From an uncultured Lacinutrix sp. (GTDB lineage Bacteria; Bacteroidota; Bacteroidia; Flavobacteriales; Flavobacteriaceae): 64,000 nt of DNA. The stretch covers positions 33,989 through 97,988 of the forward strand of contig NZ_CANMRQ010000014.1 in NCBI RefSeq assembly GCF_947500325.1, read 5' to 3'. Under the pieces are notes generated by a model. The model saw only the letters and a list, made by a program, of their open reading frames with translations, did not search any database and was not told where the DNA came from. The position numbers and the translations under genes are program-made. This document shows, one piece after another, positions 18,477-34,866 of the stretch. How positions within the stretch are numbered: position 1 is the first letter of the stretch; every line of letters begins with the position of its first letter.

Positions 18477-19561
18477 AAACGTTTTAAAATCCAGTCTTTT
18501 ATAATAACTAATGCTCTTGGAGAGAAGGTTTCTTCTATTTTAGCGTATTCTTGCCCACTACCAGTTTCAGCAGTTTGAAATAAATGGTTCAAACCTTCTA
18601 ATTGTTTTATTGTGACGTCTTTGTTGCCAGCTTTCTTTAAAGCTATTTCTATGGCTTCTAAATTTAGTTTTGGCAGTACTTGATAATCTTTACTGCCATT
18701 TAAGGCTAGAATTGGACATGTAGTTCTTGATAAATAATCCTTAGGATCAGTTTTTATAAATGTTTGAAGCCAAGAAGATTTAACTGCATTTGCTTGTTGT
18801 TCTATAAAAGCATCAGTTATTAAAGAAGCATATTGTGAGTTTGGGTTTTCAACTTTAAATGCTTTTAAGCCTGAAGATACTTCTGCTTTAATATTTTCAA
18901 AAGTATCATGTTTTTGTACAGCTCCATATATAATATTGGTTAGTTTTTCATTTTCATCTATGGCGCTTTTTGGAGCGCCAACAAGTTCTGCGGCACGACG
19001 TGTTTGGGTTTCCAAAATTATTTTTCCATCTACACCAGTTCCGGCAAGGGATATTAAAAAGGCAATGTCTTTATTTCTAGAAGCAACTATAGGAGCGATT
19101 AAGCCACCTTCGCTATGACCTATTAAACCAATTTTAGATATGTCAATATCATTTCTAGTTTTTAAATAGGTTACGGCAGCTTCAGTGTCTGTAGCAAAAT
19201 CAAATGTAGTTGCAGACATGAAGTCTCCTTCAGATTTAGCAGTTCCTCTATCATCGTATCGTAATATAGCGATGCCGTTATTGGTTAAGTAATCGGCTAA
19301 TACTAAAAACGGTTTGTGTCCAGCTAAACTTTCATTACGATCTTGCGGTCCAGATCCACTTATTAAAATGGCAACTGCAGGTTTTTTTACATTTTTAGGT
19401 AATGTAAGTGTACCTGCTAATTTTATGTTTTCCGCTTTTGTATTTGTAAAGCTTATATCTTCAATTGTATAATTAAATGGCTCTTTAGGTTCTTGTGGTC
19501 TATTTTGTGAGAAGATTGCGCATGTAAAGAATAGAATTATAGTTGTTATTGTAAGTTTCAT
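18473..19561 (-). CDS. Exported alpha/beta hydrolase
   Basis: 362 residues with an N-terminal signal peptide (about 1-18, ending FTCAIFSQ). The fold is shown by the oxyanion strand [13 protein letters not shown], the nucleophile elbow GHSEGG (Ser150), the acid in LNGSKDYQV and His in LEGLNHLFQ. This group of secreted S9-like hydrolases acts on esters or peptides; the substrate is unknown. The last four bases overlap the obgE stop on the other strand, so both genes end together without a clear terminator. Confidence 0.85.
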
Positions 19562-19582
19562 TATGTGTTGATTTTTAATTGA

Positions 19583-20230
19583 TTAATGTGATGTTTCTAT
19601 TTTTTTAAATAATAAATAAGAATATACTATAGGTATTATGGTTAGAATGCTAGTAATGACTATAAAGAGTATTAAGTTTAATTTTTTGTCTAATAATAAA
19701 CTTAATACTATTATCAATAACCCTCCAAAAAACCAATATTTTCCAGCCATATTATGTGTTCTTTTCCATACAGTTTCATTTTCTAAAGCCCAAGGCGTTC
19801 TAATACCAATAAAGTAGTTAGGTTTAAATGTTTTCATGTAATTTCCAAGAACAACATACAGTAAACCTATTAATAATATTATAATATTAGGGTTTGTAAA
19901 TGTTTGAGATTTTGAACTATATAATATAAATAATGCTAGAATCGACATGAAAAGAGTTAACAAAAACTTAATGTTGTAAAACTTATTACTCTTAGCATCT
20001 ATTTTCTTTTTAGGGTCTATTTTTGGAATTACAGTAAGCAGTACATAGATTAATACAGGTAAAAGAAAAGGAATTAATAATAGCGTATTTTTTGATGACC
20101 AACCATCAATCTCTCCACTAGCATTCCAATGTGTAGGTACAGTTTCTGGCAAAGCATTCCATATGTAGGCTAAATAAATAAAAGGAATGAGAACAATAAG
20201 TAATAACGGAAGTTCTTTTTTTAAAGACAT
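19583..20230 (-). CDS. SdpI-type immunity/membrane protein
   Basis: 215 residues with a first helix, the DUF1648 signature PTHWNASGEIDGWSSK (about 34-49) and a C-terminal SdpI domain (GNYMKTFKPNYFIGIRTPWALENE then TVWKRTHNMAGK). About six hydrophobic helices. In Bacillus SdpI confers immunity to the SdpC toxin and traps the repressor SdpR at the membrane. Here the ArsR-type gene directly upstream (4-nt gap) reproduces that pair, but no sdpABC toxin genes are present, so it may answer another envelope signal. Confidence 0.88.
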   Translation of the reverse strand: MSLKKELPLLLIVLIPFIYLAYIWNALPETVPTHWNASGEIDGWSSKNTLLLIPFLLPVLIYVLLTVIPKIDPKKKIDAKSNKFYNIKFLLTLFMSILALFILYSSKSQTFTNPNIIILLIGLLYVVLGNYMKTFKPNYFIGIRTPWALENETVWKRTHNMAGKYWFFGGLLIIVLSLLLDKKLNLILFIVITSILTIIPIVYSYLLFKKIETSH

Positions 20231-20234
20231 AATT

Positions 20235-20489
20235 TTATTTTTTTAAAGTTAGAATCCATTGTAACACATCTTCTAAAATAGTAGTGTTAATGGAGTATTC
20301 AACAAATTGACCTTTCTTTTCGCTATTAACTAAATCTGCCCTTTTTAATATGTCTAAATGATGAGAAATACTTGGTTTAGAAATATTAAAAGCATTTGCT
20401 ATTTCTCCAGCAGTAAGATCTTTTTCTTTAAGCAATTCCAAAATCTGCCGTCTAGTATCATCATTTAATGCTTTAAATAAAAGGTTCAT
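20235..20489 (-). CDS. ArsR-family autorepressor, SdpR type
   Basis: 84 residues, a compact winged helix: FKALNDDTRRQILELLKEKD, the recognition part ISKPSISHHLDILKRADLV and wing SEKKGQFVEYSIN. No metal-binding cysteines, so it is not an arsenic or zinc sensor. A palindrome with arms AAATATCTA/TAGATATTT lies 18 nt upstream of its ATG, which fits autorepression of the two-gene operon. Confidence 0.9.
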   Translation of the reverse strand: MNLLFKALNDDTRRQILELLKEKDLTAGEIANAFNISKPSISHHLDILKRADLVNSEKKGQFVEYSINTTILEDVLQWILTLKK

Positions 20490-20507
20490 GTATTTAGTTA
20501 TTTAGAC

Positions 20508-20533
20508 AAATATCTAAATATATGTAGATATTT
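20508..20533. promoter_or_regulatory. Operator palindrome of the SdpR-type repressor
   Basis: Perfect 9-bp arms AAATATCTA (20508-20516) and TAGATATTT (20525-20533) with an 8-nt AT spacer. Near TAnnTTTG-like sequence overlaps it (GATATTTG on the minus strand), so binding would occlude the promoter. Confidence 0.65.
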
Positions 20534-20584
20534 CAAAATTTTTGTTACATAAGCTCATTAAAATTATATAATGAAACTTCGAAT

Positions 20585-20657
20585 TTCCGTTTAAATAAAT
20601 CATTTTACCATTCATCATAATTTAGACTTTAAGACTTTAAATAGGATGTATATTTAC
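20585..20657 (+). promoter_or_regulatory. LytTR-type activator site plus promoter, copy 1
   Basis: A 35-bp block (20585-20619) holds the boxes TCCGTTTAA and ACCATTCAT offset by 21 nt (12-nt spacer). Each is close to the known AgrA/LytTR half-site pattern. A -7-like box TATATTTAC follows at 20649-20657, with 29 nt between block and box. The same block with three transitions, and the same distance to an identical box, occurs at 23830-23902. Confidence 0.75.
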
Positions 20658-20667
20658 AGTATCAATT

Positions 20668-20707
20668 AAAAAACAAACAGTATAACAATCATCAAAAAAC
20701 AAACAGT
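20668..20707 (+). repeat. Short direct repeat in the leader of the small ORF
   Basis: AAAAAACAAACAGT occurs at 20668-20681 and again at 20694-20707 (offset 26), the second copy ending just before the ATG of the 19-codon ORF. May be a duplicated translation-enhancing A-rich tract. Confidence 0.6.
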
Positions 20708-20708
20708 T

Positions 20709-20768
20709 ATGTTTAATTTAGTAAAAGTAGTCGTGGAAGTATTAATTGCAGTATTAACGACTATGTAA
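20709..20768 (+). CDS. Hydrophobic small ORF (19 residues)
   Basis: ATG at 20709, stop TAA at 20766-20768. The peptide MFNLVKVVVEVLIAVLTTM is a single amphipathic or membrane helix. It is the first ORF after the copy-1 LytTR promoter, at about the same distance (89 nt) as the first gene after copy 2 (83 nt). Its size and composition recall the short membrane peptides annotated as smalltalk proteins in Bacteroides, but the similarity is loose. It could be a signal, a regulator of the histidine kinase, or a leader peptide for the next gene 110 nt on. Confidence 0.45.
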   Translation: MFNLVKVVVEVLIAVLTTM

Positions 20769-20878
20769 GATTTAATCAATCAATTTATACTAACCAACCA
20801 AAATAACCAAAACAAAATTTACTTACCAATATACCTTGTATTCCCATAGTAATACAAAACAAAAAACTTTAAGGATCT

Positions 20879-21895
20879 ATGAGAAAGATACTAGTATTGT
20901 CGTTATTATTAATATTTGCTTCTTGTAAGAATGAAAAGAAAGAAATAGTTATAAAAGAACCAACAGCAGAGCAAAAAGCTAAATATGCCGAATTAAAAAA
21001 CGAAGCTTGGAATCTTTATGAAAAGAAAGATTTCTTGAAATCGGCACAGAAATATTCTGAAGCTTTTAGGGCTACTGAAGGAAAAAGTAATACTACGGAT
21101 AGATATAATGCTGCTTGTTCATGGGCTTTAGCAAAAGAAATTGACTCTTCATTTGTTCAATTATATAGAATAGCAAACAAAGGAGCTTATTCTAATTATG
21201 GTCATATAACGACAGACGTAGATTTGTCAAATTTGCATTCAGATAAGCGATGGAATAAATTACTAGACGTAGTTAAATTAAATAAAGAAAAGGCTGAAGC
21301 AAATTTTGATAAACCATTGGTAGCTATTTTAGATACTATCTATCAAGACGATCAAGGTTTAAGAAGAGAAATAAAAGATGTAGAAGAAAAATATGGTAGA
21401 GATTCTGATGAAATGAAAGCGCATTGGAAAACCATAGCAGAGAAAGATTCAATTAATCTTATTAAAATTCAAAAAATATTAGATGAACGTGGTTGGCTAG
21501 GTCAAGATAAAATTGGAGGTAGAGGGAATTCTACATTGTTTTTAGTAATTCAACATTCTCCACTAGAAGTACAGGAAAAGTATTTGCCTATGATGCGTGA
21601 AGCTGTAAAGAAAAATAATGCTAGAGCGAGCAGTCTAGCCTTACTGGAAGATAGGATAGCAATGAGAAAAGGTGAAAAACAAATTTATGGTAGTCAAATT
21701 ATGAGAGATCAAGAAACAGGAAAATATTACGTGTCTCCGTTAATTGATCCTGAAAACGTAGATAAAAGAAGAGCAGAAGTTGGACTTGCACCTTTAACCG
21801 ACTATGTAAGCATGTGGAATATTACTTGGGATGTTGAAAAACATAAAGCAATGGCAGAAAAGTTAGAATCTGAAAAAAATAAAAACATGCAATAA
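20879..21895 (+). CDS. Lipoprotein with TPR-like start and DUF6624 domain
   Basis: 338 residues. A signal peptide with lipobox (LIFASC, Cys16) places it in the outer or inner membrane. Residues 30-110 look like a TPR-type helical pair (AWNLYEKKDFLKSAQKYSEAF). The C-terminal part from about 170 matches DUF6624: FLVIQHSPLEVQEKYLP, LALLEDRIAMRKGEKQIYGSQ and KRRAEVGLAPLTDY. DUF6624 function is unknown; it is often found on exported proteins of Bacteroidota. It stands directly before the LytS/LytTR pair and behind a likely LytTR target promoter, so it is probably part of the signalling circuit. Confidence 0.75.
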   Translation: MRKILVLSLLLIFASCKNEKKEIVIKEPTAEQKAKYAELKNEAWNLYEKKDFLKSAQKYSEAFRATEGKSNTTDRYNAACSWALAKEIDSSFVQLYRIANKGAYSNYGHITTDVDLSNLHSDKRWNKLLDVVKLNKEKAEANFDKPLVAILDTIYQDDQGLRREIKDVEEKYGRDSDEMKAHWKTIAEKDSINLIKIQKILDERGWLGQDKIGGRGNSTLFLVIQHSPLEVQEKYLPMMREAVKKNNARASSLALLEDRIAMRKGEKQIYGSQIMRDQETGKYYVSPLIDPENVDKRRAEVGLAPLTDYVSMWNITWDVEKHKAMAEKLESEKNKNMQ

Positions 21896-21977
21896 AAATT
21901 ATAAGTGCATTAGAAATTGTATTAGATATAGAAGTGCGATATTTTAGTTTAAATTGCACAAGTTTAAAGTACAACAA

Positions 21978-23039
21978 ATGAAATTATCTCTAAATAAATA
22001 TTATCTCATTTTTAGTTTAATAGGTTGGGTGTTTCTTTTTTTTATTACACTAGCACTTAGAAAAATGATTGGTGTAGAAACCTCACCAGAGCGTGTTAAA
22101 TATTTAATTGCAGAATCTGTTGCTTGTGGGATATTAGCTTACTTAACAACATTTATAGTCTCTCTACATATAGACTATAAAATAGATTTTAATAATATTA
22201 AGCGCCTAGATATCTATAAGGTAATAGGATTATTTATTATTATACAATTAATATATTCATGGTTACTCTGGCCATTATTAGATATGGTTGATTTCTGGGG
22301 AGGTAGTAGAGGTAAGTCTGGAGATATGACCTTTATACCGCTTTTATATAATGCTATATATTTTGCTACACTATATATTATATGGCTTTTTGTGTTTTTA
22401 ACTATTAAAATGTATCATCATTTAAACGTTGTGAAAGTAAAACAACTCCAGTTAGAAAGTAACTTAAAAGAATCTCAATTAAATACTTTAAAAGGCCAAA
22501 TTAATCCACACTTTATGTTTAATACTTTAAATAATATTCGTGGTTTAATGCTTGAAGATGTAAGTAAGGCTAGAAATATGTTAACAAATTTATCTGAAAC
22601 ATTACGATATTCACTTACCAAAAGTGACGTAGATTCGATAGCTTTAGAAGATGAATTAGAAATGGTAGAGAATTATATAGCGATTTCTAAAATTCAATTA
22701 GAAGAACGTTTACAATTTCAAACCGAAATAGATCCAAATACTTTAAGTAAACAAATACCTCCAATGATTATACAAATGTTAATTGAAAATGCAATTAAGC
22801 ATGGTATTTCTAATCTAAAAACGGGAGGTATATTAAGTTTAAATACACATATTAACAATAATGTTTTAGAAATAGTAGTAGCAAATCCTGGGCAATTAAA
22901 AGAAACAAAAAATACGACTAGATTAGGTTTGAAAAATATTAAACGACGTCTTGAATTACTTTATGGCGATAGTGCTATATTTAATTTAAAAGAAGTAGAT
23001 GCTAGAGTAATTGCAACTGTTAAAATTCCATTAGCGTAA
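21978..23039 (+). CDS. LytS-type sensor histidine kinase
   Basis: From the ATG at 21978 the protein has 353 residues; a TTG at 21954 could add eight. Four membrane helices (about 10-150) with a short loop between helices 3 and 4 (FWGGSRGKSGDMTF) form the sensor. The His_kinase domain has the phospho-acceptor in INPHFMFNTLNNIRG (His178) and the ATPase N-box MLIENAIKHGIS with a glycine-rich RLGLKNIKRRL. It should phosphorylate the LytTR regulator whose ATG overlaps its stop (TAATG). No periplasmic ligand domain, so it may sense membrane state or a membrane peptide. Confidence 0.93.
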   Translation: MKLSLNKYYLIFSLIGWVFLFFITLALRKMIGVETSPERVKYLIAESVACGILAYLTTFIVSLHIDYKIDFNNIKRLDIYKVIGLFIIIQLIYSWLLWPLLDMVDFWGGSRGKSGDMTFIPLLYNAIYFATLYIIWLFVFLTIKMYHHLNVVKVKQLQLESNLKESQLNTLKGQINPHFMFNTLNNIRGLMLEDVSKARNMLTNLSETLRYSLTKSDVDSIALEDELEMVENYIAISKIQLEERLQFQTEIDPNTLSKQIPPMIIQMLIENAIKHGISNLKTGGILSLNTHINNNVLEIVVANPGQLKETKNTTRLGLKNIKRRLELLYGDSAIFNLKEVDARVIATVKIPLA

Positions 23040-23764
23040 TGAAGTTAAAAGCTGTCATAGTAGAGGATTCACGTTTAGCCAGAAATGAGTTGAAAGAACT
23101 TATGAAAGTACATCCAGAGATTGAACTTATTGGTGAAGCAGAAAATGTAGATGAAGGTTATAAACTTATTAATAAATCTAATCCAGATTTGTTGTTTCTA
23201 GATATAAATATGCCCGAAAAAGATGGTTTTGAATTATTAGAAATGTTAGATGAGGTGCCAACAACCATTTTTACTACTGCTTTTGATGAATACGCTATTA
23301 AATCTTTTGAGTATAATGCTTTTGATTATTTGTTAAAACCAATTAACCAAAAACGATTTTCGGCTACAATAAAAAAAGTTTTTGAAAATGCAACTGCTGC
23401 ACCTTCTAATATTTCTAATAAAGATGTTTTAGCATTAGATAAAAAAATCTTTATTAAAGATGGAGAAAAATGTTGGTTAGTAAAAATTCAAGATATTTCT
23501 CTTTTTGAAATAGTAGGTAATTATACACGTGTGTATTTTGAAGAAAATCAACCACTTATATATAAGTCATTAGTGCAAATAGAAGAGAAATTACCCCAAG
23601 ATGTTTTTTTTAGAGCTAATAGACAGCAAATAATAAATATTAACCATGTAAATAAAGTAGTATCATGGTTTAACGGTAAGTTAAAAATAGAAATGCATTC
23701 TGGTGATGAAATCGAAATTTCAAGAAGGCAATCTTATATTTTTAAAGACCAATTAAGTTTCTAA
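23039..23764 (+). CDS. LytTR-family response regulator
   Basis: 241 residues. The receiver domain (1-120) has acidic pocket VIVEDSR, phospho-acceptor Asp55 (LLFLDINMP), and the lysine in LLKPINQ. The C-terminal LytTR DNA-binding domain (about 140-241) shows EIVGNYTRVYF, FFRANRQQIININHV and HSGDEIEISRRQS. LytTR proteins bind two direct repeats about 21 bp apart; exactly such pairs lie upstream of 20709 and 23948, bracketing this gene, so they are its probable targets. Confidence 0.94.
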   Translation: MKLKAVIVEDSRLARNELKELMKVHPEIELIGEAENVDEGYKLINKSNPDLLFLDINMPEKDGFELLEMLDEVPTTIFTTAFDEYAIKSFEYNAFDYLLKPINQKRFSATIKKVFENATAAPSNISNKDVLALDKKIFIKDGEKCWLVKIQDISLFEIVGNYTRVYFEENQPLIYKSLVQIEEKLPQDVFFRANRQQIININHVNKVVSWFNGKLKIEMHSGDEIEISRRQSYIFKDQLSF

Positions 23765-23829
23765 TTTAGAAATTATAAGTATTATTATTTCTATTAGTAA
23801 ATAAAAATTTCCAAGTTAAAATTATTTTA

Positions 23830-23902
23830 TTCCGTTTAGATAAATCATTTTGCCATTCGTCATATTTTTTATGTTCAATGTCTGCCTCTAATATATATTT
23901 AC
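23830..23902 (+). promoter_or_regulatory. LytTR-type activator site plus promoter, copy 2
   Basis: The 35-bp block 23830-23864 equals copy 1 except for three A-to-G changes; boxes are TCCGTTTAG and GCCATTCGT, 21 nt apart. TATATTTAC lies at 23894-23902, with the same 29-nt gap as in copy 1. It drives the 23948-27061 pair. Confidence 0.75.
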
Positions 23903-23947
23903 GACTGTAAATTGAACCTTAATCAATCAACTATATAAATCAAAAAA

Positions 23948-25081
23948 ATGAAAACAATTAAATGTATTATTCTTACATGCCTGCTAAGTATTGCAACACA
24001 TGCTCAAAAAGAAGTTAAAGAAATCTCAAGGGATTGGACCTCTTTTAGTCAATTTTTAGATATAGAATCTAAGACAAAAAAGAAATTTAAAGTTATTGCT
24101 TCTGTAAAAGTTGACACTGAAGATAAACAAGCTTGGGCAGGAGTTTGGGCAAGGGTAGACAATAAAGAAGAAACCGGGTTTTTTGATAATATGGGAGATA
24201 GACCAGTGAAAATTAATGAATGGAAGTCTTATACTGTAGAAGGTGTTATAGATGAAAATTCTAAACGATTAAATTTTGGAGGGTTATGTTTAATGAATGG
24301 CAAATTCTATTTTGATAATTATAAATTATTTATAGAAAACGATAAAGGAGTGTTAGAAGAAGTTCCTGTAGATAATTTCAGTTTTGAAACTTCATTTTCT
24401 AATAATGTAATTCCAAAATGGAATCAAGGTATTTCTAAAGGTAAAACTGTAAAAGTTAAAGAGTATAAGGTAACCACTACAGCAGATGCAGTAGAAGGTA
24501 ATTCTGCATTGTTAATAGAAGGAAGTGGTATTAAGCCAACCTCAGATGGTACTATAGGAAATGTGGAAGGCGCTTCGCCTCAAATTGCAGCGATGATCTC
24601 TATGTTAGAAGATTTAAAAGAGCGAGTAGAAAGAAGAGTAAAGAATATGTCTCAATATGAGATAGATCATTTACATGATGAAAAAGCAAATAGAATTGGG
24701 GCTTTAATTATGCATTTAGCTGCAGCTGAAAAATTTTATCAAGTATTTACTTTTGAAGGAAGAATGTTTAATGAAGAAGAGAAAAAGAAATGGGATGTAG
24801 CTTTAAATTTAGATCAAGGCGGAAGAGATGAGTTTAAAGGTCATGATGTACAGTATTACTTAGATATTTATAATGAAGTAAGAGCAAAAACGATAGAAGA
24901 GTTAAAAAAGAGAGATGATAAATGGTTTCAAGAAATACAGCCAGCTTATGGTTGGAGTAATCATTATTGTTGGTTCCATGTTATGGAACATCAATCTAGT
25001 CATTTAGGACAAATTTTATTTTTAGCAAAAAGAATTCCACCAGAGGCAGAGTTGAAACTACCAGAAAACATTAAAGATTAA
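23948..25081 (+). CDS. Exported fusion: beta-rich ligand-binding module plus DinB domain
   Basis: 377 residues with signal peptide (about 1-19, ending LSIATHAQ). Residues 20-200 form a module with EISRDWTSFSQ, GVWARVDNKEE, GFFDNMGDRP and LNFGGLCLMNGKFYFDN, similar to galactose-binding-like modules seen at the ends of regulators and hydrolases. Residues 210-377 are a DinB four-helix domain with histidines in LIMHLAAAEKFYQ and WFHVMEHQSSHLGQI that could form a metal site. DinB enzymes usually work in the cytosol as thiol transferases; an exported one is unusual. First gene after the copy-2 LytTR promoter. Confidence 0.75.
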   Translation: MKTIKCIILTCLLSIATHAQKEVKEISRDWTSFSQFLDIESKTKKKFKVIASVKVDTEDKQAWAGVWARVDNKEETGFFDNMGDRPVKINEWKSYTVEGVIDENSKRLNFGGLCLMNGKFYFDNYKLFIENDKGVLEEVPVDNFSFETSFSNNVIPKWNQGISKGKTVKVKEYKVTTTADAVEGNSALLIEGSGIKPTSDGTIGNVEGASPQIAAMISMLEDLKERVERRVKNMSQYEIDHLHDEKANRIGALIMHLAAAEKFYQVFTFEGRMFNEEEKKKWDVALNLDQGGRDEFKGHDVQYYLDIYNEVRAKTIEELKKRDDKWFQEIQPAYGWSNHYCWFHVMEHQSSHLGQILFLAKRIPPEAELKLPENIKD

Positions 25082-25096
25082 TATAATATTATTAAA

Positions 25097-27061
25097 ATGA
25101 AGAAATTATATTTCATACTATTTGCGATTCTAATTAGCTTTTCTCTATCTGGACAGACAGTAAAAGAAATTTCTAGAGATTGGGTTTCGTTTAGCCAAAA
25201 AATAGAGGTTAAAACAGACTCTATAAAAAAGTTTAAAGTCATTGCATCTGTAAAAGTAGAAGGAATTGATGAAAAGTCTAGAGCAGGAATTTGGGCAAGA
25301 GTAGATAATAAACCAGAGCAAGGAAGAGGTTTTTTTGATAATATGGGAAATAGACCCATAACTGCTAATAAATGGGAGTCATATACAATTGTAGGTAGAA
25401 TAGATTCTAAATCTGAAGAGATAAATTTTGGAGCTATTTGCTATAATAATGGCAAGTTTTACTTTGATAAATTTGAACTCTATATAGAAGATGATAATGG
25501 AGAATATCAACCTGTAAAATTAGATAACGCTAGTTTTGAAAATAAAGTAGTAAATAGTGCTATTCCTAATTGGAGTAATGGTATAGGTCGCGCCGAACCT
25601 ACAAGAATAAGAGAATTTACTTTCAATGCGAGTGAAGATGCAATAGATGGGGCATATGCTATAGTAATAGAAGGTAGTGGGATTGATAATAATACCGGTA
25701 CTATTAAACCGTTTTATCCAAATATAGGAATATACATAGCTATACTATTTCTGTTAATATTTGTATTAACATTAATAACTAATATCTCATCAACTGAAGA
25801 GGATAAGTGGTCTAAGCTAGGGAGTTTTGGCTTTAGGTTTTCATTTATTTACTTTGGGTTAATTATTTTCTTTCAAAATAATGGGGCTTATCCATTTTTT
25901 GATTTTCTAGCTAAAAAACCACTGGAGTTAATGCAAAAATTCGCACCTTGGTTTGGAGAGCATGTTCTCGGAATTCCTTTTAAAATAGCTACAGGACCTA
26001 ATGGTAGTGGAGATACAACCTTTGATTATCTAGTTGTACTTATAATTTTTATTACAGCAGTATTAGGTGCTTTAATTTGGTCAGTTATAGATAGAAAGCG
26101 AACAAGTTACAAGAAACTATATTATTGGCTAACAACAGCAATGCGTTACTATGTTGGTTTAATGCTTATTAGTTATGGCTTAGTAAAAGTTATCCAACTA
26201 CAATTTCCAGAACCTAGTTTTTACAGATTATTACAACCTTATGGTGAATCTTCTCCTATGGGATTAGCTTGGACTTTTTTAGGTTTTTCAGAAGGTTATA
26301 ATATGTTTATGGGTATTGCAGAAGTGTTAGCTGGTTTGTTATTGTTTAGAAGAACTCAAACATTAGGAGCGATCATCACTTTAATGACTGCTATGAATGT
26401 GATGGCAGTTAATTACTTTTTCGATGTGCCTGTTAAGATATTATCTACTCATTTAGTGTTAATGACGTTGTTCTTGTTGTCTCGAGATATTAAGAAAGTA
26501 ATGCAGTTTTTATTAACCAATAATCCTGTTGAAAGATTAACAGTAATAAAGCGTCCCAAGCTAAAAAAATGGCTAGATGTTAGTCTTAAAGTGTTGAAGG
26601 GTTTAGTTATAGCCTATGCCTTAGGATATGGTTTCTACAATGTTCTAGATATGAATAAGCAATATAATCCAGATGTGCCTAAACCAGAATTATATGGTGT
26701 TTATAAGGTGAAAAATTATGTCATTAATAATGATACCATAACCAATTATAAAAATGATAGACTTTGGAAAACTATTATGTTTGAAAGAACAGGTTCTGTA
26801 CAAATTGAAACAATGAATGAGAAAAGAATTTCTTATAAAGTTGAAATAGATTCAATAACTAAAAAAATGAAATTTTCTAAATCTGGTGATCAATCAGATG
26901 CTTTTGATTTTAATTATACAAAGACAGGTGCTAATTTAGATTTTAACTTTATCACAGAGAATGATACAATTTCTGGAAAGACCAAACGTATGAATGATGA
27001 TGCTCTTTTATTAATCAATAGAGGTTTTAATTGGATTAGTGAACGTCCTTATAACAGATAA
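25097..27061 (+). CDS. Same exported module fused to a DoxX-like membrane domain
   Basis: 654 residues with signal peptide (1-19). Residues 20-205 repeat the module of the preceding gene (EISRDWVSFSQ, GIWARVDNK, GFFDNMGNRP). Then a membrane part of about seven helices follows (IYIAILFLLIFVLTLI, then 280-480), including a DoxX-like core with AMRYYVGLMLISYGLVKVIQLQFP, GFSEGYNMFMGIAEVLAGLLLFRR and LLSRDIKKVMQFLL. The C-terminal tail (about 530-654) is a soluble strand-rich domain. The paralogous module shared by both genes suggests that they bind the same ligand or each other. Only 15 nt separates the two genes. Confidence 0.75.
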   Translation: MKKLYFILFAILISFSLSGQTVKEISRDWVSFSQKIEVKTDSIKKFKVIASVKVEGIDEKSRAGIWARVDNKPEQGRGFFDNMGNRPITANKWESYTIVGRIDSKSEEINFGAICYNNGKFYFDKFELYIEDDNGEYQPVKLDNASFENKVVNSAIPNWSNGIGRAEPTRIREFTFNASEDAIDGAYAIVIEGSGIDNNTGTIKPFYPNIGIYIAILFLLIFVLTLITNISSTEEDKWSKLGSFGFRFSFIYFGLIIFFQNNGAYPFFDFLAKKPLELMQKFAPWFGEHVLGIPFKIATGPNGSGDTTFDYLVVLIIFITAVLGALIWSVIDRKRTSYKKLYYWLTTAMRYYVGLMLISYGLVKVIQLQFPEPSFYRLLQPYGESSPMGLAWTFLGFSEGYNMFMGIAEVLAGLLLFRRTQTLGAIITLMTAMNVMAVNYFFDVPVKILSTHLVLMTLFLLSRDIKKVMQFLLTNNPVERLTVIKRPKLKKWLDVSLKVLKGLVIAYALGYGFYNVLDMNKQYNPDVPKPELYGVYKVKNYVINNDTITNYKNDRLWKTIMFERTGSVQIETMNEKRISYKVEIDSITKKMKFSKSGDQSDAFDFNYTKTGANLDFNFITENDTISGKTKRMNDDALLLINRGFNWISERPYNR

Positions 27062-27122
27062 TACAAGACACAAAACAAGCTTAATTGAAACCTCATTTTT
27101 TAGTTAAGTTTGTGTTAATTCG

Positions 27123-27153
27123 TTGATATTGAAAGTTTTAGGTTGTATTTTTG
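27123..27153 (+). promoter_or_regulatory. Promoter of the DinB gene
   Basis: TTG (27123-27125), 20-nt spacer, TATTTTTG (27146-27153), a full consensus match. It argues against the in-frame TTG at 27151 as start, because that codon lies inside the -7 box. Confidence 0.7.
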
Positions 27154-27174
27154 AGAACAGTCAAAAATCGAACA

Positions 27175-27735
27175 ATGAAAAAATCAATTTTAATTACAAT
27201 TCTGTTAATGATTTGCTTTTTTGTAAATGGACAAAATTTAATTAAACCAGAAAAAGGGTTTACTAACGATATTGGTAACCTAGTATCTATGCTTAATGAT
27301 TTAAAAGCAAGAGTAACAAGATCTGTTGAAGGAATGAGTCAATATGAGGCAGACTATTTATTAGACGACAATGCAAATAGAATAGGTGCAATGATTATGC
27401 ACTTGGCAGCAACTGAAGCCTACTATCAAGTTTATACTTTTGAAAACAGGGGTTTTAATAAAGATGAACAAAAGAAATGGAGTGTTGCTTTAAATCTTGG
27501 AGATAATGGTAGAGAAAAATTGCAAGGAAAACCAATAGAATACTATTTAGATATTTATAAAGAAGTAAGAGCTAAAACATTGAAGCTTTTAAAAACAAAA
27601 GATGATAAATGGTTAAAGGAGAAAAATAGTGCAGGGACAATGAACAACCATTGGGCTTGGTATCATGTTATGGAACATCAAGCTAATCATATGGGGCAAA
27701 TACGGTTTTTAGCTAAACGAATTCCAAAAGAATAG
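27175..27735 (+). CDS. Exported DinB-family protein
   Basis: 186 residues from ATG 27175, with signal peptide (about 1-19, FFVNGQ). The rest is a DinB domain closely resembling the C-terminal half of the 23948 gene: MSQYEADYLLDDNANRIG, IMHLAATEAYYQVYTF, YYLDIYKEVRAKT and WYHVMEHQANHMGQIRFL. Three histidine positions match the metal-binding pattern of DinB proteins. It has its own promoter and a strong terminator, so it can be made apart from the LytTR genes. Clearly a duplicate of the neighbouring domain. Confidence 0.85.
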   Translation: MKKSILITILLMICFFVNGQNLIKPEKGFTNDIGNLVSMLNDLKARVTRSVEGMSQYEADYLLDDNANRIGAMIMHLAATEAYYQVYTFENRGFNKDEQKKWSVALNLGDNGREKLQGKPIEYYLDIYKEVRAKTLKLLKTKDDKWLKEKNSAGTMNNHWAWYHVMEHQANHMGQIRFLAKRIPKE

Positions 27736-27765
27736 AAAAAGGCTTCCAAATATGGAAGCCTTTTT
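27736..27765. terminator. Bidirectional intrinsic terminator
   Basis: A 12-bp perfect stem (AAAAAGGCTTCC / GGAAGCCTTTTT) with a 6-nt loop; U-runs form on both strands. It begins at the base after the DinB stop and serves the convergent DoxX gene too. Confidence 0.9.
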
Positions 27766-27787
27766 CATTACAGTTAGTTATAGATAG

Positions 27788-28159
27788 TTAGTTCAATAAG
27801 TCACTGTATTTGTTTTTATAGCCTATAAGTACAGCAATATTTAATATTAATAAAACAGCTGCACCACCAATTCCTCCAGGATCTAATACAGCATGAAATA
27901 ATACCGCATTTATAGATACACTCATTAGAATTAATGCCGATAAGGCGCCAAATTTGTTAAAAATTAAGGCTAAACCAGCTATTATTTCCACTAAAGCAAC
28001 TAGTACCATTGTTTTAGAATTTGTTAATGCTCCAAAATAGGCACCTGCATCTGCAGATAACTCTGGCATTGGTAAAAAATCAGCAAATTTGTTAACTCCG
28101 AAGACTAAAACAAAGATTCCAAGTAAAATTCTTAGAACCATAAATACTTTTGGATTCAT
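27788..28159 (-). CDS. DoxX family membrane protein
   Basis: 123 residues with four helices: VLRILLGIFVLVFGVNKF, TMVLVALVEIIAGLALIF, ALSALILMSVSINAVLFH and GAAVLLILNIAVLIGYK. The FGVNKFADFLPMPEL segment and VEIIAGLAL pattern are typical of DoxX. Convergent with the DinB gene and related in fold to the membrane part of the 25097 gene. Cellular role unknown. Confidence 0.82.
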   Translation of the reverse strand: MNPKVFMVLRILLGIFVLVFGVNKFADFLPMPELSADAGAYFGALTNSKTMVLVALVEIIAGLALIFNKFGALSALILMSVSINAVLFHAVLDPGGIGGAAVLLILNIAVLIGYKNKYSDLLN

Positions 28160-28296: not shown

Positions 28297-31200
28297 TTAC
28301 TCAACTGTTATGCGAGTACCTTCACTATGACTACTAAACTCTGGAGCATACATACTTTGTATAGTAGTAATGCCATTACTCATATTACCAGCATTACTAA
28401 CACGTAAATCGTATTCAAAAACATAAACCCCTTTTGGTAAATAATCGAAAAAGAAGTTTGTTGAAGCATCTTTTGTTGCTTCATAATATCCTAAACCATC
28501 TTGAGTTTTATATCTAGATATAACATTTATAGGTTCTAAGCCGGCAGCTCTCATATCTTTCATATGTACAAATTCCATAGCGCGATCACTACGTAATTCT
28601 ATACGTACTCTTACTAAATCTCCTACTTCTAGTTTGGTGTTTTTTGTAATATCTGTAATCACTTCACCTTTGTCTGTATTTGTCTTTTTAAATAGTTTTT
28701 TCTTAAGTTTTAAAGGCGTTTCGGCAGAAGTAATTTTGTCTAAGTCTTCAAAATATTGCCAGTATAAACTTCCCCAAGCAATACCTTTACCTGTTTTCGT
28801 GATTTTTATTTCGCTCATTGCAGGTGTAATTTCAGTGCCAGTCCAATTTGTTTTATAATAACCAGTACCAGCTTCTACTTTTACAGCTTCTAGTTTTGAT
28901 GGGGCAATAGGTTGGTTACCAATAACTACTTCTACCATGTCTGTAACGCTTAACCAATCGCTACCTTGAAGTAGTAAAGCATAAATAGCTTCTGTTGTTG
29001 CTTTTGTTGTTTTCCAACGATTAGTTTGTTTATTTTTTAATAACCAGATTTTAAGTTCATCTATAGTTTTAGTATCATTTTCAATTTCAGAGAACGCTTC
29101 AATCATCAGGGCTTGTGTTTCTATAGGTGCTTGATACCAATACCAAGAATTGGTGTTTTCTTTCCAATACATTCCTAACTCTTCACTGGTGATACTATTT
29201 TCTTTTAATGATTTTAAAATCTTACTTGAGGTCGAATTATCATTCATTCTATGTGTTACTAATGCCATCATACCTTTTGCATATAAGGCACGTTTAGTCC
29301 AGTAATTTTTAATTTGAGAATGGTAATAATCCATAATTTCTTTTACTTCTTTATTGGGTTTGTTTTCTGGGAAAAAACTACGCATGTATAAATAATGTAA
29401 TTGAGTATAGCTTAATCGATCTAGATTTAAATCGGCTTTTTCGTCGTATTTTCTAATGTCTTTATATTCTTTTATGAATTGAGTATCTAAATATGGTAAT
29501 GCTTTATTAATCATAGTATTTTCTATGTCACTTAGTTTAACATTAAGCTGCTTTAAATGTCCAAAACCAGTAATGATATGTTGTGTGATATAGCGGTTCG
29601 CTCTATAATCTCCAAACCAAGACCAAGCACCATTAGACATTTGGTTTCTTTTAAGTTTGTTTTTTGCTTTAGATAATTCGTTATTCATTTTATTTAAATC
29701 GAATAACAAGGCGATACGTTTTTTCTGTTCAGTTTCACTTTGCGCATCACGTAACCAAGGTGTTTCTTGAATTAAAATAGATTTTAATTCTTGATTCTTT
29801 TCTAAGTTACTTAATAAAGCATCTGTGTTCTTCCATTGGTTAAATACGTCTTGAATTCTTGGATTAGAATTTGCAATATGACTTGCTAAAGTATTAGCAT
29901 AATAACGGGAGAAGGTTTGCTCGTTACACTCGTAAGGATATTCCATTAAATATGGTAATGCTTGTACAGCATACCATGCTGGATTACTTGTCATTTCAAG
30001 CGTTAACTTATGGTTTTTAAGCGTTGTTGAGGTGTTTGTTTTTAGTTTATCTAAAGTGAAAGTTTTGGTTTGATTACTACGAATCCACATTGGTAACGAT
30101 TCTGTTACCAACATACGATTAGTTAAAACTGGTAATGCATTTTGCTCACCATCGCTATAATCTCCAGACTTCGCTATTATTTTATATTGTACAGCTTGTA
30201 CATCGTCTGTTACATCTATATTCCAAGTTACACTAGTATTCCCTTTTGCATCTACAGTAAAACCAAGGTCATTATACGCATTAGATAATTTTTGGTCTAT
30301 AGCTTTACCCGTTAAAGCATTAAACAATTGAAGTATAGCTACACCAGATAGTTTTTTATCTGTTAGGTTTGAAATTTTGGTGCTAATTTTTATGTTATCG
30401 CCTTCACGTAAAAAACGTGGTGCGTTAGGTAACACCATTAATTCTTTTTGTGTAACAGTAGTTAACGATGTTGTAGCATGTTCTAATGTTTTAGTATGTG
30501 CTAATAATTGTAATTTCCATTTAGTTAATGCTTCTGGTGTTGTAAAGCTAAACAAAACATTTCCGTTACTATCTGTTTCTAATTGGGGAAAGAAAAAGGC
30601 AGTTTCCTGAAGGTTTTTTCGAATTTTTACAGTATCAAAATTTGCGTTTGGATTATTTTTGGTTGTAATAATTACAACCCCATTTTTGCCTTTTTCTCCA
30701 TAGGCTGCAATGGCTTCATTACCTTTTAACACATTCATAGATAATATGTCATTTTGATTTATGTTTGTTATTTCTCCAGCAGTCATAGGTACTCCATCAA
30801 CTACATATAAAACGTCTTTATTATCACTTAAAGATGAAACACCTTTTAGTGTGATTTTATTATTTGCTCCTGGTTGTACATTACTAGTAGTTATATTTAA
30901 CCCAGCAACTTGTCCTTCTAATGTTTGAGCAAATCCAGCATTAGTTTTTCTTTTTGATCTAGATTCATCAGAAACCATCATAGCCATTGGAGCTTCACTT
31001 TCCATTGCTTCAACTACAATTTCGTCTAAAGAGTTATTATCTTCAGCTAAATAAATAGAAAATGAATTGTTCTTATCAATAGTTATACTTTCGGTTTTAA
31101 AACCTATCATGCTAATATCTAAAACTTCTCCTTTCAATACTTTAAGAGAAAAACGGCCGTTAATATCTGTTACTGTTCCAGTAGTTGTGCCTTTAACAAT

Positions 31201-34200
31201 AATATTTACGCCAGGTAATGGCGAATTGTTTTCATCGTAGATAATTCCAGAAACAGTACCAGATTTGACGCTTTTATCGTACCTCGATTTAGTATTATTA
31301 ATGCGAATACCTCTTAAATAGCGTTGGTATTGCCAACGGTTATTATTTAAACTAAAACCAAACCAATTTAATTGGTCATACATTTGTTCTTTAGGGTAAC
31401 TTGGATATAGTCTATTGCGTTTTACACTAAAATTTGCTTGCCCAAAACTTCTATTAGCATTACGGCTTAGACTAGAGTAGTAGGTAGAACGATAGATAGG
31501 ATTAAAACTCCAATTGTGTGTTTTAAATTCGTCTAAAGACGCATCGTACATACTTGCTAATAATTCGGCCGAAGCTTTGTCTCCTTTTGGACCTTTTATT
31601 TTAAATTTCCATGTTTCATCACTTCCTGGCTGTAGTTTGTCTCTAAACGTTAACGTTTCAATTTCCAAATCGGTTTTTGGATAAGGGACATTAATTTGTA
31701 ATGTGCCATTTTTAAAACTATTGTAAGCCGCAAAACTATAATGTACAGCAAAACCGCCTAAGTCTTCTTTAGTTACTGGTATACGAATAGTTTTTTTGTT
31801 AGCTTTTAAGTTAACAATGTATGTGTTAATAATCTCATTGTTTTTTTCAACAGCAATAGTTACTGTTAAGTCTTTAGCAGCGGTAGCAAGTATAATTTCT
31901 GCAGTATCGTTAGTTTCATACTGCATTTTATTGGTAGTAATACTAAATAATTGATTATCTGCTAATAGTTCATCTTTTGCACTATATAATGTGGTTTTGG
32001 CTTCGTCTTTTACGGCTTGGCCAAATTTATCTTTAGAGTCTAGAACTATAATATATTCACCAGATTCCCATCGTTTTATGTTTTTTAAGTCAAGCTCTTT
32101 AGATACTTCGGTATTAAAAGTTTTATCGTAAACTAGTTCGCCTTTTTCCTTATGTTCACTTTTATCTTCATTAGTATAAGCATCATGAGGAAAACGGTTT
32201 TTAAAATCGGTTTTGGTAAAGTTTATATAATCTGGTGCTTTCCAAGGTCTCGGTCGTAATACATTATCTGGTGCATTTAACTTATAAATTTTAAGTGTGC
32301 CTTTTGCAGGAACAAATTCACCATTTAAATTACGCGTATCTATAGTAATTTTATGATCTTTTTTAGTTTTATCTAAAGCGTTATCAATAGAAATAGTGGC
32401 TGTTAATGCATGATAACCAACATTTACTATTGTTTTTGTACTTCTGGTTTCTCCATTAATATCTGTAACATCTGCAGTAATCTCATATTTAAAAACAGGA
32501 AGACTAGATTTGTCTACACTTTCATCGGGAATAGCTTTAAAAGTAATATTATAATTACCATTAGCATCTGTAACTGTTTCACCTTGGGTTATTTCTTGTC
32601 CTTGATCTCGAAATGTTGGACGTCTCCAATAAAACCAACGCGGATATTCTACATTTCTTTTAACACGATATACCACTTTAGCATCAGAAATTGTTGAACC
32701 AGCAAAAGCAAGTGCTTCTCCTTTTACGGTTATACTATCGTTTACTTTTATGGTTTCGGTAATGGGTTTAAAGTTGGTTTCAAACTTTGGACGTTTATAT
32801 TCTTCCACCGAAATATTAGTATAAGCACTTAGGTCTTTATTATCATTTAATCTTATACTAAAATTACCTGTTAATCCACTATTGGGTAATATAAATTCGC
32901 CAGCTACAGAACCATATTCATTTGTTTTTAAATTAAGCTCTTTTACTTTTTCACCATTTACATTGTTTAATACAACAGTGACAGAACGATTAGGTATAAC
33001 TTCAGATTTATTGTCTTTAGTTTTCATACTAATACCTTTAAAATATACAGTTTGTCCAGGTCTATAAATACTTCGGTCTGTAAACAAAAAGGCATTGTAT
33101 CTTGTTTTGTTATCGTTATTACGGTTTCTGTAATAATTATAAATATATATGTCATCAAAGTGAGCGACATCATCTTTAGATAACACTGTAATATTTAAGC
33201 GTCGTCGGTCTCGCTTACGTTTTTTTATAAATGTTTTACCCTTAGAACTAGTAGTCGTTGTAAAAGTTTCACTTACTTCATTATCGTATAAATATTGAAA
33301 TTGAATTTTAGTATTCTCAATTGGGTTACCATTATTTCTATCTATAAATTGAAAGTATTTCTTTTCAGAATCTTCATATTCTACTAAAGCAATATTTGTG
33401 ATTTGCACCAATGTATGTGCTTTAAAATTTTCATCTAAAGCAGCCGTTTTAGCTGTTATAATATAACGTCCATTATTTAAAGCAGGCAAAGAAATTTCTG
33501 TAGTATGTAACTGAAAATCATTTTCATTTTTTAGTGAAGTATCCCAGTTTTTTGTAGGGTCAAGTTTAGCTATAAAATCCTGTTGTTCATTCTCTCTATA
33601 TAGTTTTTTAAACTTTTTATATTGTTTTTCGGTAAGCTTATAAGCAGAAAGATTTAACGCTTCTAGGTTTTTGTAGGTTACTAGTATCCTAGATTCTGTA
33701 TTAACAGGGATTAATTTTTCTGCTGTTAACTGTAATGTAGGATTGGTTATGTATTGTTTTAAAACACGACATTGTTCGGCACCTTTACTCAAAGGGAATT
33801 TTGTAATAGTAGTATCGCAAACTGCAATGGCCTCTTTAATTTTCCAACGAACTTCAGGTTTTGTTTCGTAATTATATTGTCCTCCTAGATTATTATATAA
33901 ACCAGCAAGTTTAAAGTTATATAATGCCGATACTTCATGTTCTTCATGTTTTTTGCTTTCAGATTTAATAGTGTTTATAAAAACGTTCTCTTTATCGTTA
34001 AATGTTGCGTATTGATTTACAAAATCTAATCGATCTATATTAACAGCGGTAAGCGCATATGGCTCTTTATCTTTTGCATGGAACTTAGTGAGCTCTTGAT
34101 AAAGTTTTAAAGCATTTAAAGCTAATGAAGACGTGTCTTTTGATACTATTTTTAACTTAGAAAATGTTTCAGATTCTCCAAGAAATTCTGGGTTGTCTAT

Positions 34201-34866
34201 TAAAAACTTATAGGCAGGTTTGTTAATTCTATTCTCTTGATGTTTGTAAAACACTAAGGCATTATGTGCTAAAAAATCAAAAAGCGTTGGTCTATATCTT
34301 TTAGATTCGTTTTGTAAGGATAAAAGAATGTCAAAATCTACTAATTTAGTTTGCTGTAAAATAAGTCCATTATTTAAAGAGCTTTTATAATGAAAATGAA
34401 TCTCTTCGAATAAAGTCTCTAAATCCCATGTTCTAAAATCTTTAGTGTCTACTTTGTCTTTAGTTTTTGTACGATTATAGAATTTATAGCGATTTTGTTG
34501 AAAGTACTGCCAATACAAAGTAGCTAATACATTTTGTAAAACATTCTTTGTTGGTGATTCACTTTTACTAATTTCTGCCTTAAAATCATTAATAATTTTA
34601 AGTTGTGCATTTTCTTCAAGTAATAAAGCGAACTTACTTTTAAATAATAATACCTTAATTTGCTGAGGTGAGTTATTGTCTTTTTTTGCTTTTAATTCAA
34701 TAGTTTCAACAATTTCTAATGCCGATTTAGGCAAACCTTCAACTTCAAGTTTTTCAACTTGACTCCAAAGTTCGGAATAGTTATTGTTTTGAGATAAAGC
34801 TGTATTAGCAAAAAGAATAATCATTAATATTGAGAGAAATTTATTCATTATAATTAATTTTTTCAT
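28297..34866 (-). CDS. Alpha-2-macroglobulin-like protein with inserted carboxypeptidase-like and TonB-plug-like domains
   Basis: 2189 residues with signal peptide. A second ATG at 34848 gives a more usual signal (ILFANTALSQ). The N-terminal 500 residues are helical; MG-type beta domains follow, including TDRSIYRPGQTVYFKG near residue 600. The thioester motif CNEQ is at 1647-1650 (YECNEQTFSRYY), then the alpha-helical thioester domain (about 1600-1950) and a receptor-binding-like end. Between these, residues about 1200-1285 form a carboxypeptidase-regulatory-like domain (GIIYDENNSPLPGVNI) and 1310-1405 a TonB-plug-like one (VLYVVDGVPM, GVVIITTKN). Bacterial relatives trap proteases at the envelope. 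The signal peptide has no lipobox cysteine. Confidence 0.88.
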   Translation of the reverse strand: MKKLIIMNKFLSILMIILFANTALSQNNNYSELWSQVEKLEVEGLPKSALEIVETIELKAKKDNNSPQQIKVLLFKSKFALLLEENAQLKIINDFKAEISKSESPTKNVLQNVLATLYWQYFQQNRYKFYNRTKTKDKVDTKDFRTWDLETLFEEIHFHYKSSLNNGLILQQTKLVDFDILLSLQNESKRYRPTLFDFLAHNALVFYKHQENRINKPAYKFLIDNPEFLGESETFSKLKIVSKDTSSLALNALKLYQELTKFHAKDKEPYALTAVNIDRLDFVNQYATFNDKENVFINTIKSESKKHEEHEVSALYNFKLAGLYNNLGGQYNYETKPEVRWKIKEAIAVCDTTITKFPLSKGAEQCRVLKQYITNPTLQLTAEKLIPVNTESRILVTYKNLEALNLSAYKLTEKQYKKFKKLYRENEQQDFIAKLDPTKNWDTSLKNENDFQLHTTEISLPALNNGRYIITAKTAALDENFKAHTLVQITNIALVEYEDSEKKYFQFIDRNNGNPIENTKIQFQYLYDNEVSETFTTTTSSKGKTFIKKRKRDRRRLNITVLSKDDVAHFDDIYIYNYYRNRNNDNKTRYNAFLFTDRSIYRPGQTVYFKGISMKTKDNKSEVIPNRSVTVVLNNVNGEKVKELNLKTNEYGSVAGEFILPNSGLTGNFSIRLNDNKDLSAYTNISVEEYKRPKFETNFKPITETIKVNDSITVKGEALAFAGSTISDAKVVYRVKRNVEYPRWFYWRRPTFRDQGQEITQGETVTDANGNYNITFKAIPDESVDKSSLPVFKYEITADVTDINGETRSTKTIVNVGYHALTATISIDNALDKTKKDHKITIDTRNLNGEFVPAKGTLKIYKLNAPDNVLRPRPWKAPDYINFTKTDFKNRFPHDAYTNEDKSEHKEKGELVYDKTFNTEVSKELDLKNIKRWESGEYIIVLDSKDKFGQAVKDEAKTTLYSAKDELLADNQLFSITTNKMQYETNDTAEIILATAAKDLTVTIAVEKNNEIINTYIVNLKANKKTIRIPVTKEDLGGFAVHYSFAAYNSFKNGTLQINVPYPKTDLEIETLTFRDKLQPGSDETWKFKIKGPKGDKASAELLASMYDASLDEFKTHNWSFNPIYRSTYYSSLSRNANRSFGQANFSVKRNRLYPSYPKEQMYDQLNWFGFSLNNNRWQYQRYLRGIRINNTKSRYDKSVKSGTVSGIIYDENNSPLPGVNIIVKGTTTGTVTDINGRFSLKVLKGEVLDISMIGFKTESITIDKNNSFSIYLAEDNNSLDEIVVEAMESEAPMAMMVSDESRSKRKTNAGFAQTLEGQVAGLNITTSNVQPGANNKITLKGVSSLSDNKDVLYVVDGVPMTAGEITNINQNDILSMNVLKGNEAIAAYGEKGKNGVVIITTKNNPNANFDTVKIRKNLQETAFFFPQLETDSNGNVLFSFTTPEALTKWKLQLLAHTKTLEHATTSLTTVTQKELMVLPNAPRFLREGDNIKISTKISNLTDKKLSGVAILQLFNALTGKAIDQKLSNAYNDLGFTVDAKGNTSVTWNIDVTDDVQAVQYKIIAKSGDYSDGEQNALPVLTNRMLVTESLPMWIRSNQTKTFTLDKLKTNTSTTLKNHKLTLEMTSNPAWYAVQALPYLMEYPYECNEQTFSRYYANTLASHIANSNPRIQDVFNQWKNTDALLSNLEKNQELKSILIQETPWLRDAQSETEQKKRIALLFDLNKMNNELSKAKNKLKRNQMSNGAWSWFGDYRANRYITQHIITGFGHLKQLNVKLSDIENTMINKALPYLDTQFIKEYKDIRKYDEKADLNLDRLSYTQLHYLYMRSFFPENKPNKEVKEIMDYYHSQIKNYWTKRALYAKGMMALVTHRMNDNSTSSKILKSLKENSITSEELGMYWKENTNSWYWYQAPIETQALMIEAFSEIENDTKTIDELKIWLLKNKQTNRWKTTKATTEAIYALLLQGSDWLSVTDMVEVVIGNQPIAPSKLEAVKVEAGTGYYKTNWTGTEITPAMSEIKITKTGKGIAWGSLYWQYFEDLDKITSAETPLKLKKKLFKKTNTDKGEVITDITKNTKLEVGDLVRVRIELRSDRAMEFVHMKDMRAAGLEPINVISRYKTQDGLGYYEATKDASTNFFFDYLPKGVYVFEYDLRVSNAGNMSNGITTIQSMYAPEFSSHSEGTRITVE

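Follow-up and report, generated by a model that had tools for sequence, protein, structure and literature searches.

Why should the gene for a LytTR response regulator (RR) be bracketed by two nearly identical blocks of DNA, each followed at the same distance by the same promoter-like sequence? The arrangement occurs in a 64,000-nucleotide (nt) stretch from an uncultured Lacinutrix sp. of the Flavobacteriaceae (contig NZ_CANMRQ010000014.1 of assembly GCF_947500325.1, positions 33,989 to 97,988 of the forward strand), which we call the window. A first-pass annotation, made from the letters alone, had read the blocks as binding sites of the regulator encoded between them and had proposed a two-promoter regulon. 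We consider it probable that the two blocks are operators, one ahead of the regulator's own micropeptide-led operon and one ahead of a group of MST/DinB genes, that the RR binds both and activates them together in a local, self-amplifying circuit, and that the peptide feeds back on the kinase encoded with the regulator. The elements of the proposed circuit are as follows.

20585..20619, + strand: operator 1, two boxes with a 21-nt offset, upstream of the predicted two-component system (TCS) operon
20649..20656, + strand: P1, predicted -7 promoter element TATATTTA, 41 nt from the CC of the second box
20709..20768, + strand: micropeptide open reading frame (ORF) of 19 amino acids (aa), MFNLVKVVVEVLIAVLTTM, the first ORF after P1
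21978..23039, + strand: LytS-type histidine kinase (PF06580, E = 2.4e-25) with four predicted transmembrane (TM) segments before the kinase domain
23039..23764, + strand: LytTR response regulator (PF00072, E = 3.1e-20; PF04397, E = 8.7e-23)
23830..23864, + strand: operator 2, upstream of MST/DinB-type genes
23894..23901, + strand: P2, predicted -7 promoter element TATATTTA

The predicted operators and their footprint in relatives

Direct reading of the window bore out the geometry that had been annotated. The 35-bp blocks differ at three positions, each an A in block 1 and a G in block 2, and within both blocks the boxes are offset by 21 nt (CCGTTTA at 20587 and 23832; CCATTC(A/G) at 20608 and 23853). 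The gap between each block and TATATTTAC (20649-20657 and 23894-23902) is exactly 29 nt. The gene between them (23039-23764) encodes a receiver domain (PF00072) joined to a LytTR DNA-binding domain (PF04397), as befits a LytTR response regulator. When up to three mismatches were allowed in a 32-base core, the two blocks were the sole matches in the 64 kb, and 100 shuffles gave none. A matrix built from 81 sites in other genomes, and hence free of window sequence, gave the two blocks 52.5 and 46.2; elsewhere on the two strands the highest score was -11.9, and the best of six shuffled windows, read on the + strand only, reached -10.8. An Rfam scan of 19500-28000 returned no match.

To place the layout in a wider context, we drew 397 genomes from the family, of which 67 matched at an E value of 1e-55 or better: 45 with a strong RR orthologue (E below 1e-116) and 22 with a sister paralogue only. 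To these we added G001 and G007, two genomes of the same genus, together with 80 named loci from Winogradskyella, Gillisia, Tenacibaculum, Cellulophaga, Allomuricauda, Flagellimonas, Kordia, and others. This gave 127 loci with at least 60% RR identity, or 117 unique loci after 10 duplicates were dropped. A site followed by a -7-like box at 39 to 43 nt was present in 96 of the 117, and in 94 the distance from the second box was exactly 41 nt, while the reverse strands of the same spans held one such site. Counted per site, the 41-nt distance occurred in 133 of 139. A scan less tied to the choice of 39 to 43 nt, in which stricter sites from 47 loci were searched over 30 to 59 nt, placed 37 of the -7 boxes at 41 nt, one at 40, and two at 35; the box offset was 21 nt in 10 of 10 sites. 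With a loose threshold of up to three mismatches, candidate sites were found in 111 of the 117 loci, chance hits included, compared with 26 candidates in 22 loci on the reverse-strand control at the same threshold. Two or more sites per locus are common, and in G001 and G007 the same site stands ahead of hydrolase-histidine kinase-RR gene sets.

A logo of 53 sites (39 of 47 loci, selected for boxes, CAT, and -7) extended the second box to about CCRYTBRTCATAWTT. Of the three differences between the window blocks, one is at the free logo position 7, one at position 20 (mostly A), and one at position 27 (A or G). Paired direct boxes roughly two helical turns apart, close to a promoter, are the arrangement expected of LytTR sites. 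A layout of this form is conserved across relatives, and the predicted operator-promoter arrangement is an evolutionary footprint.

The site also follows the regulator. For searches of whole genomes we used a sequence model (R1), whose training included the window sites and which scores 113 to 150 first-look candidates per genome. The comparison set 42 of the 47 RR-bearing genomes known at that point against 42 chosen from those without it (G007, G212, G303, and G406 were left out, and the window's own genome was searched apart). R1 hits with E up to 0.001 appeared in 42/42 genomes with the RR and 5/42 without. At 29 bits or more, the counts were 38/42 and 0/42, a contrast that is partly by construction. 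The five RR-less genomes with hits were G002 and G004, which had the strongest two, and G018, G102, and G410, in which the hits were weak. In G002 and G004, which belong to the same genus, the operator is retained at the old locus (L242 and L243) where the TCS is missing, and in G004 the site is followed by a short 3' remnant that, by eye, resembles the end of the RR gene. Around the sister paralogue, none of 16 loci (of 25 listed places, 16 were fetched) had a site with the 41-nt spacing; one of them, L117, had a loose candidate at 38 nt on the other strand. By this comparison the predicted site and this RR orthologue travel together.

In the window's own genome (4.57 Mb; 150 of 14,196 candidates scored), only the two window sites exceeded 20 bits (49.8 and 43.3). 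The genome has 27 LytTR-domain matches and two sites above that score, so it does not use the motif for LytTR proteins in general. A third hit, at C24:4286 (19.6 bits), has two boxes without a -7 box at the right distance and was taken as chance. The proposed regulon centred on the LytTR gene is upheld as a local one: of 69 R1 hits in RR-bearing genomes, 65 are no more than about 7 kb from the RR gene. The four off-locus hits are two in G112 (27.8 and 22.3 bits), one in G086 (26.3 bits), and G229:C30 (42.8 bits). Those in G112 and G086 are weaker, lack the micropeptide, and sit in different gene settings, one preceding a 782-aa ORF and one a 996-aa ORF. G229:C30 precedes ankyrin-type genes such as also follow sites elsewhere; we kept it as a real exception.

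A conserved micropeptide gene

The gene order after P1 is the 19-aa ORF, a DUF6624 gene, the PF06580 kinase, and the RR-LytTR gene. The predicted operon of the regulator begins with a conserved micropeptide ORF, which the first-pass annotation had not described. Under an automatic rule that accepted a hydrophobic ORF of 17 to 24 aa in the leader after a site, the peptide was present in 79 of 108 TCS-proximal leaders (29 failed) compared with 2 of 47 other sites. Across all leaders it was found in 81 of 155, against a mean of 1.14 and a maximum of 5 in 50 shuffles. At loci accepted by the rule, the ORF starts 22 to 55 nt after the -7 box. Altogether, relatives of the peptide were recognized in 97 of the 117 loci, 12 of them accepted by resemblance, by eye, in a wider look at 32 loci. 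Four of the relatives (L099, L171, L183, and L188) lack Lys6 and lie further downstream, visibly behind another small ORF in L171 and L183.

The peptides share more than their position. Lengths of 17 to 19 aa were found in 79 of 87 ORFs, and polar residues recur at positions 3, 6, 10, and 14; this 87-ORF set, which also served for dN/dS (the ratio of nonsynonymous to synonymous substitution rates), was limited to ORFs whose sixth residue is K, R, I, V, or L. Of 85 unique ORFs, 77 have Lys6, in a count that was not restricted by residue 6 and that leaves out a spurious ORF at L202 (it begins MK). The spurious ORF is inside the length, polar-position, dN/dS, and helical-moment sets and outside the pN/pS set, in which proportions of differences were compared. 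The helical moment was 0.33, compared with 0.18 for shuffled peptides (maximum, 0.21), and we predict that the micropeptide forms an amphipathic membrane helix. Estimates of dN/dS were 0.31 when all pairs were taken and 0.18 for the 72 close pairs, and pN/pS was 0.23 in 26 disjoint pairs (Fisher, 1e-24). As judged from these substitution patterns, the ORF is under purifying selection.

The leader region held 84 occurrences of a peptide pattern drawn from these same peptides; outside it, 3.28 Mb of strand sequence contained one, and the 16 sister-paralogue loci contained none. A search of the window genome with the peptide returned a single match, itself. On the RR tree, the presence or absence of the peptide needs 4 changes compared with a shuffled mean of 18.8 (midpoint root; bootstrap not settled), and the peptide-less loci are one clade of 13, five Tenacibaculum loci, L160, and L147. 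Profile scans of the seven peptides of at least 20 aa gave a best E value of 0.37 in NCBIfam and none in Pfam.

Other small ORFs were seen near these promoters. At L084, L086, L111, and L171 there is an additional ORF of 40 to 48 aa that resembles a single-TM protein, and many loci have membrane-protein-like ORFs of 60 to 80 aa or about 150 to 190 aa after the micropeptide. At L073, the promoter, the micropeptide (with one residue difference), and the next membrane-protein gene are duplicated in tandem.

Promoter position, mechanism, and alternatives

The distance between block and promoter had been taken as that of a class II activator, whose classical site is centred near -41.5 and overlaps the -35 element. 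In PMC6847099, the -7 consensus is given as TAnnTTTG and the Flavobacterium johnsoniae element as spanning -12 to -5. If the -7 boxes of the window occupy -12 to -5, the boxes of each operator would start near -74 and -53, the proximal box would end near -41, and the site would be centred near -58. The class II assignment does not fit a predicted centre near -58 rather than -41. A better fit is the placement of AgrA, which serves two promoters (P2/P3) from direct repeats centred near -60 (PMC4227749). The -33 region of the logo shows a TTT trend only, a weakness that would be expected of an activator-dependent promoter.

Our proposal starts at the membrane. The four-TM kinase, with little of it outside the membrane, would sense a membrane-borne cue, and the phosphorylated RR would bind the two boxes as a dimer. 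Bound RR would activate RNA polymerase at promoters with the weak -33 element and, by driving its own operon, would create a self-amplifying loop. The P2 genes would be the output, as would the predicted exported S9-type peptidases/hydrolases or ankyrin proteins of relatives. The micropeptide would most likely enter the inner membrane and act back on the kinase encoded beside it. We favor a role as a feedback ligand because the peptide accompanies the kinase and not the targets.

Several observations weigh against this interpretation. Many of the RR-positive genomes were in the training of R1, and about 113 candidates were scored per genome. In 21 of 117 loci no candidate has a matching -7 box, and 35 of 174 candidate sites lack one, some being near-misses and some probably chance. 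The loose scan found no candidate site in six loci, and three of these (L200, L207, and L208) still carry a peptide ORF. Twelve of the 97 peptide-positive loci were picked by eye from lists that are also rich in chance ORFs. Since 20 of the 117 loci have no peptide, the circuit can exist without one. Finally, that the peptide contacts the kinase directly is something we infer.

The peptide could instead be an output, a membrane-active amphipathic helix produced while the TCS is active; the kinase would then respond to a different cue. It is short and amphipathic, has no visible leader or signal, and lies behind a predicted LytTR promoter, and it resembles in kind the phenol-soluble modulins, which are AgrA controlled. 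Yet it is found alongside the kinase and regulator genes but rarely at other sites (2/47), and there was no significant family match; one of the seven peptides of at least 20 aa matched a modulin model at an E value of 2, which is chance level. We regard an output role as rather unlikely. Still less likely is an ORF that serves as a regulatory leader, through translation coupling or attenuation, and whose peptide is inert. Although the ORF comes first in the leader, 22 to 55 nt after the -7 box where the automatic rule applied, its amino acids are conserved above its DNA (pN/pS, 0.23), with Lys6 in 77/85 unique ORFs and the polar stripe at 3/6/10/14. Moreover, the downstream genes and their distances vary among loci, and at L099, L171, L183, and L188 the related ORF lies further downstream.

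The operators themselves allow two other explanations. Window site 2 might be a recent, functionless copy of site 1: the spacer is common to both window blocks yet not conserved across the family, a pattern that points to recent duplication or conversion of some 35 bp. We think this very unlikely, given that the -7 box of site 2 keeps the 41-nt distance although its flanks otherwise differ, that multi-site loci are frequent, and that L075 and L085 have members of the 25097-27061 gene family positioned between the site and the kinase gene. The sites might also belong to another regulator, with the LytTR gene between them by chance. Binding of this RR is a prediction, and the genome holds 26 further LytTR-domain matches. 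Site presence nevertheless tracks this RR orthologue and not the sister paralogue (0/16), and the two strongest hits in RR-less genomes are at the vacated locus; we give this last explanation very little credence.

Targets, neighbors, and known systems

The remaining genes of the two predicted transcription units are as follows.

20879..21895, + strand: lipoprotein-like protein with a DUF6624 domain
23948..25081, + strand: target gene, MST/DinB-like C-terminal domain PF04978
25097..27061, + strand: target operon gene of 654 aa, its N terminus 45% identical to the preceding gene and the rest hydrophobic in parts
27172..27735, + strand: target operon gene, MST/DinB family

Spacing and strand predict that the gene sets after P1 and P2 are operons. 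The kinase is of the LytS type, with PF06580 following four hydropathy peaks. P2 is followed by an MST/DinB-type gene, the 654-aa gene, whose product had no Pfam match up to an E value of 0.1, and a second MST/DinB gene. Because a relative of the 654-aa gene stands between the site and the kinase gene in L075 and L085, the P2 genes appear to be true members of the regulon. In relatives, sites without the peptide precede a cluster of 34 alpha/beta hydrolase-like genes (Peptidase_S9 in the two scanned), 9 ankyrin-type genes, and 3 putative Zn-protease lipoproteins in Tenacibaculum; one ankyrin-type gene and one of the lipoproteins were scanned. Their N termini, judged by eye, predict export of these proteins. 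Among small ORFs after target promoters, no recurring one was seen by eye.

Other genes adjoin the circuit. On the - strand, 28297-34866 encodes a 2,189-aa protein that looks by eye like alpha-2-macroglobulin, with an apparent inserted carboxypeptidase-regulatory/TonB-plug stretch; relatives of this gene adjoin the TCS at many loci. An ArsR-type repressor gene and an SdpI-family gene (19583-20489, - strand) are divergent from P1 and sit between the TCS and a hydrolase gene; relatives of that hydrolase gene are found immediately under the site in G001 and G007. The window RR (23039-23764), set against L031 and L032, is closer to Winogradskyella-type RRs than to those of same-genus G001 and G007, which suggests replacement or ancient paralogy at one locus.

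Parts of the circuit recall known systems. YpdA of Escherichia coli is a PF06580-type kinase. The YpdB repeats, GGCATTTCAT, are 21 nt apart as counted from an oligonucleotide in PMC4847170, and the window shares with YpdA/YpdB a PF06580-type kinase, a LytTR regulator, and tandem direct boxes with a 21-nt offset. Unlike in YpdA/YpdB, the TCS operon itself has a site and starts with a micropeptide, the kinase has four predicted TM segments, and the place of transporters as putative targets is taken by hydrolases, ankyrin, or MST/DinB proteins. For LytS/LytTR systems, a target gene near the TCS is described in some species (PMC5552118). The likeness to Staphylococcus aureus agr is in the two promoters with direct repeats and in the predicted site centre (near -58 compared with about -60). 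The differences are in phylum, promoter type, and a peptide without visible precursor parts; neither AgrB nor AgrD had a match among the ten window proteins scanned. In ComCDE-type operons, a short peptide gene, a kinase gene, and a LytTR regulator gene stand together behind their own site. Here, too, a peptide gene accompanies the kinase and LytTR regulator (97/117 loci, 12 by eye), with cotranscription predicted, whereas the peptide has no recognizable leader, and no exporter or maturase gene was recognized among the same ten proteins. MgrB is a tiny membrane peptide that is under TCS control and regulates a kinase; the present peptide is shorter, amphipathic, and encoded beside the TCS genes.

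These comparisons raise a bolder possibility, which we put forward only tentatively and on balance doubt: that the Flavobacteriaceae have a so far unrecognized family of LytTR circuits in which the amphipathic 17- to 19-aa peptide from the operator-controlled operon itself would be the signal read by the four-TM kinase, within or between cells, in a loop like those of ComCDE and Agr that would have evolved in Bacteroidota and does without precursor, maturase, or dedicated exporter. Titles and abstract openings returned by a literature search, with subscription papers outside it, mentioned no LytTR operator or peptide-linked LytTR operon in Bacteroidota, a result that does not establish absence. 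The locus offers a precise operator with its -7 spacing and a natural reporter, together with a conserved gene family of 17 to 19 aa, below the 40-aa minimum of a large protein search. Whether LytTR kinases in Bacteroidota are tuned or triggered by membrane micropeptides thus becomes directly testable.

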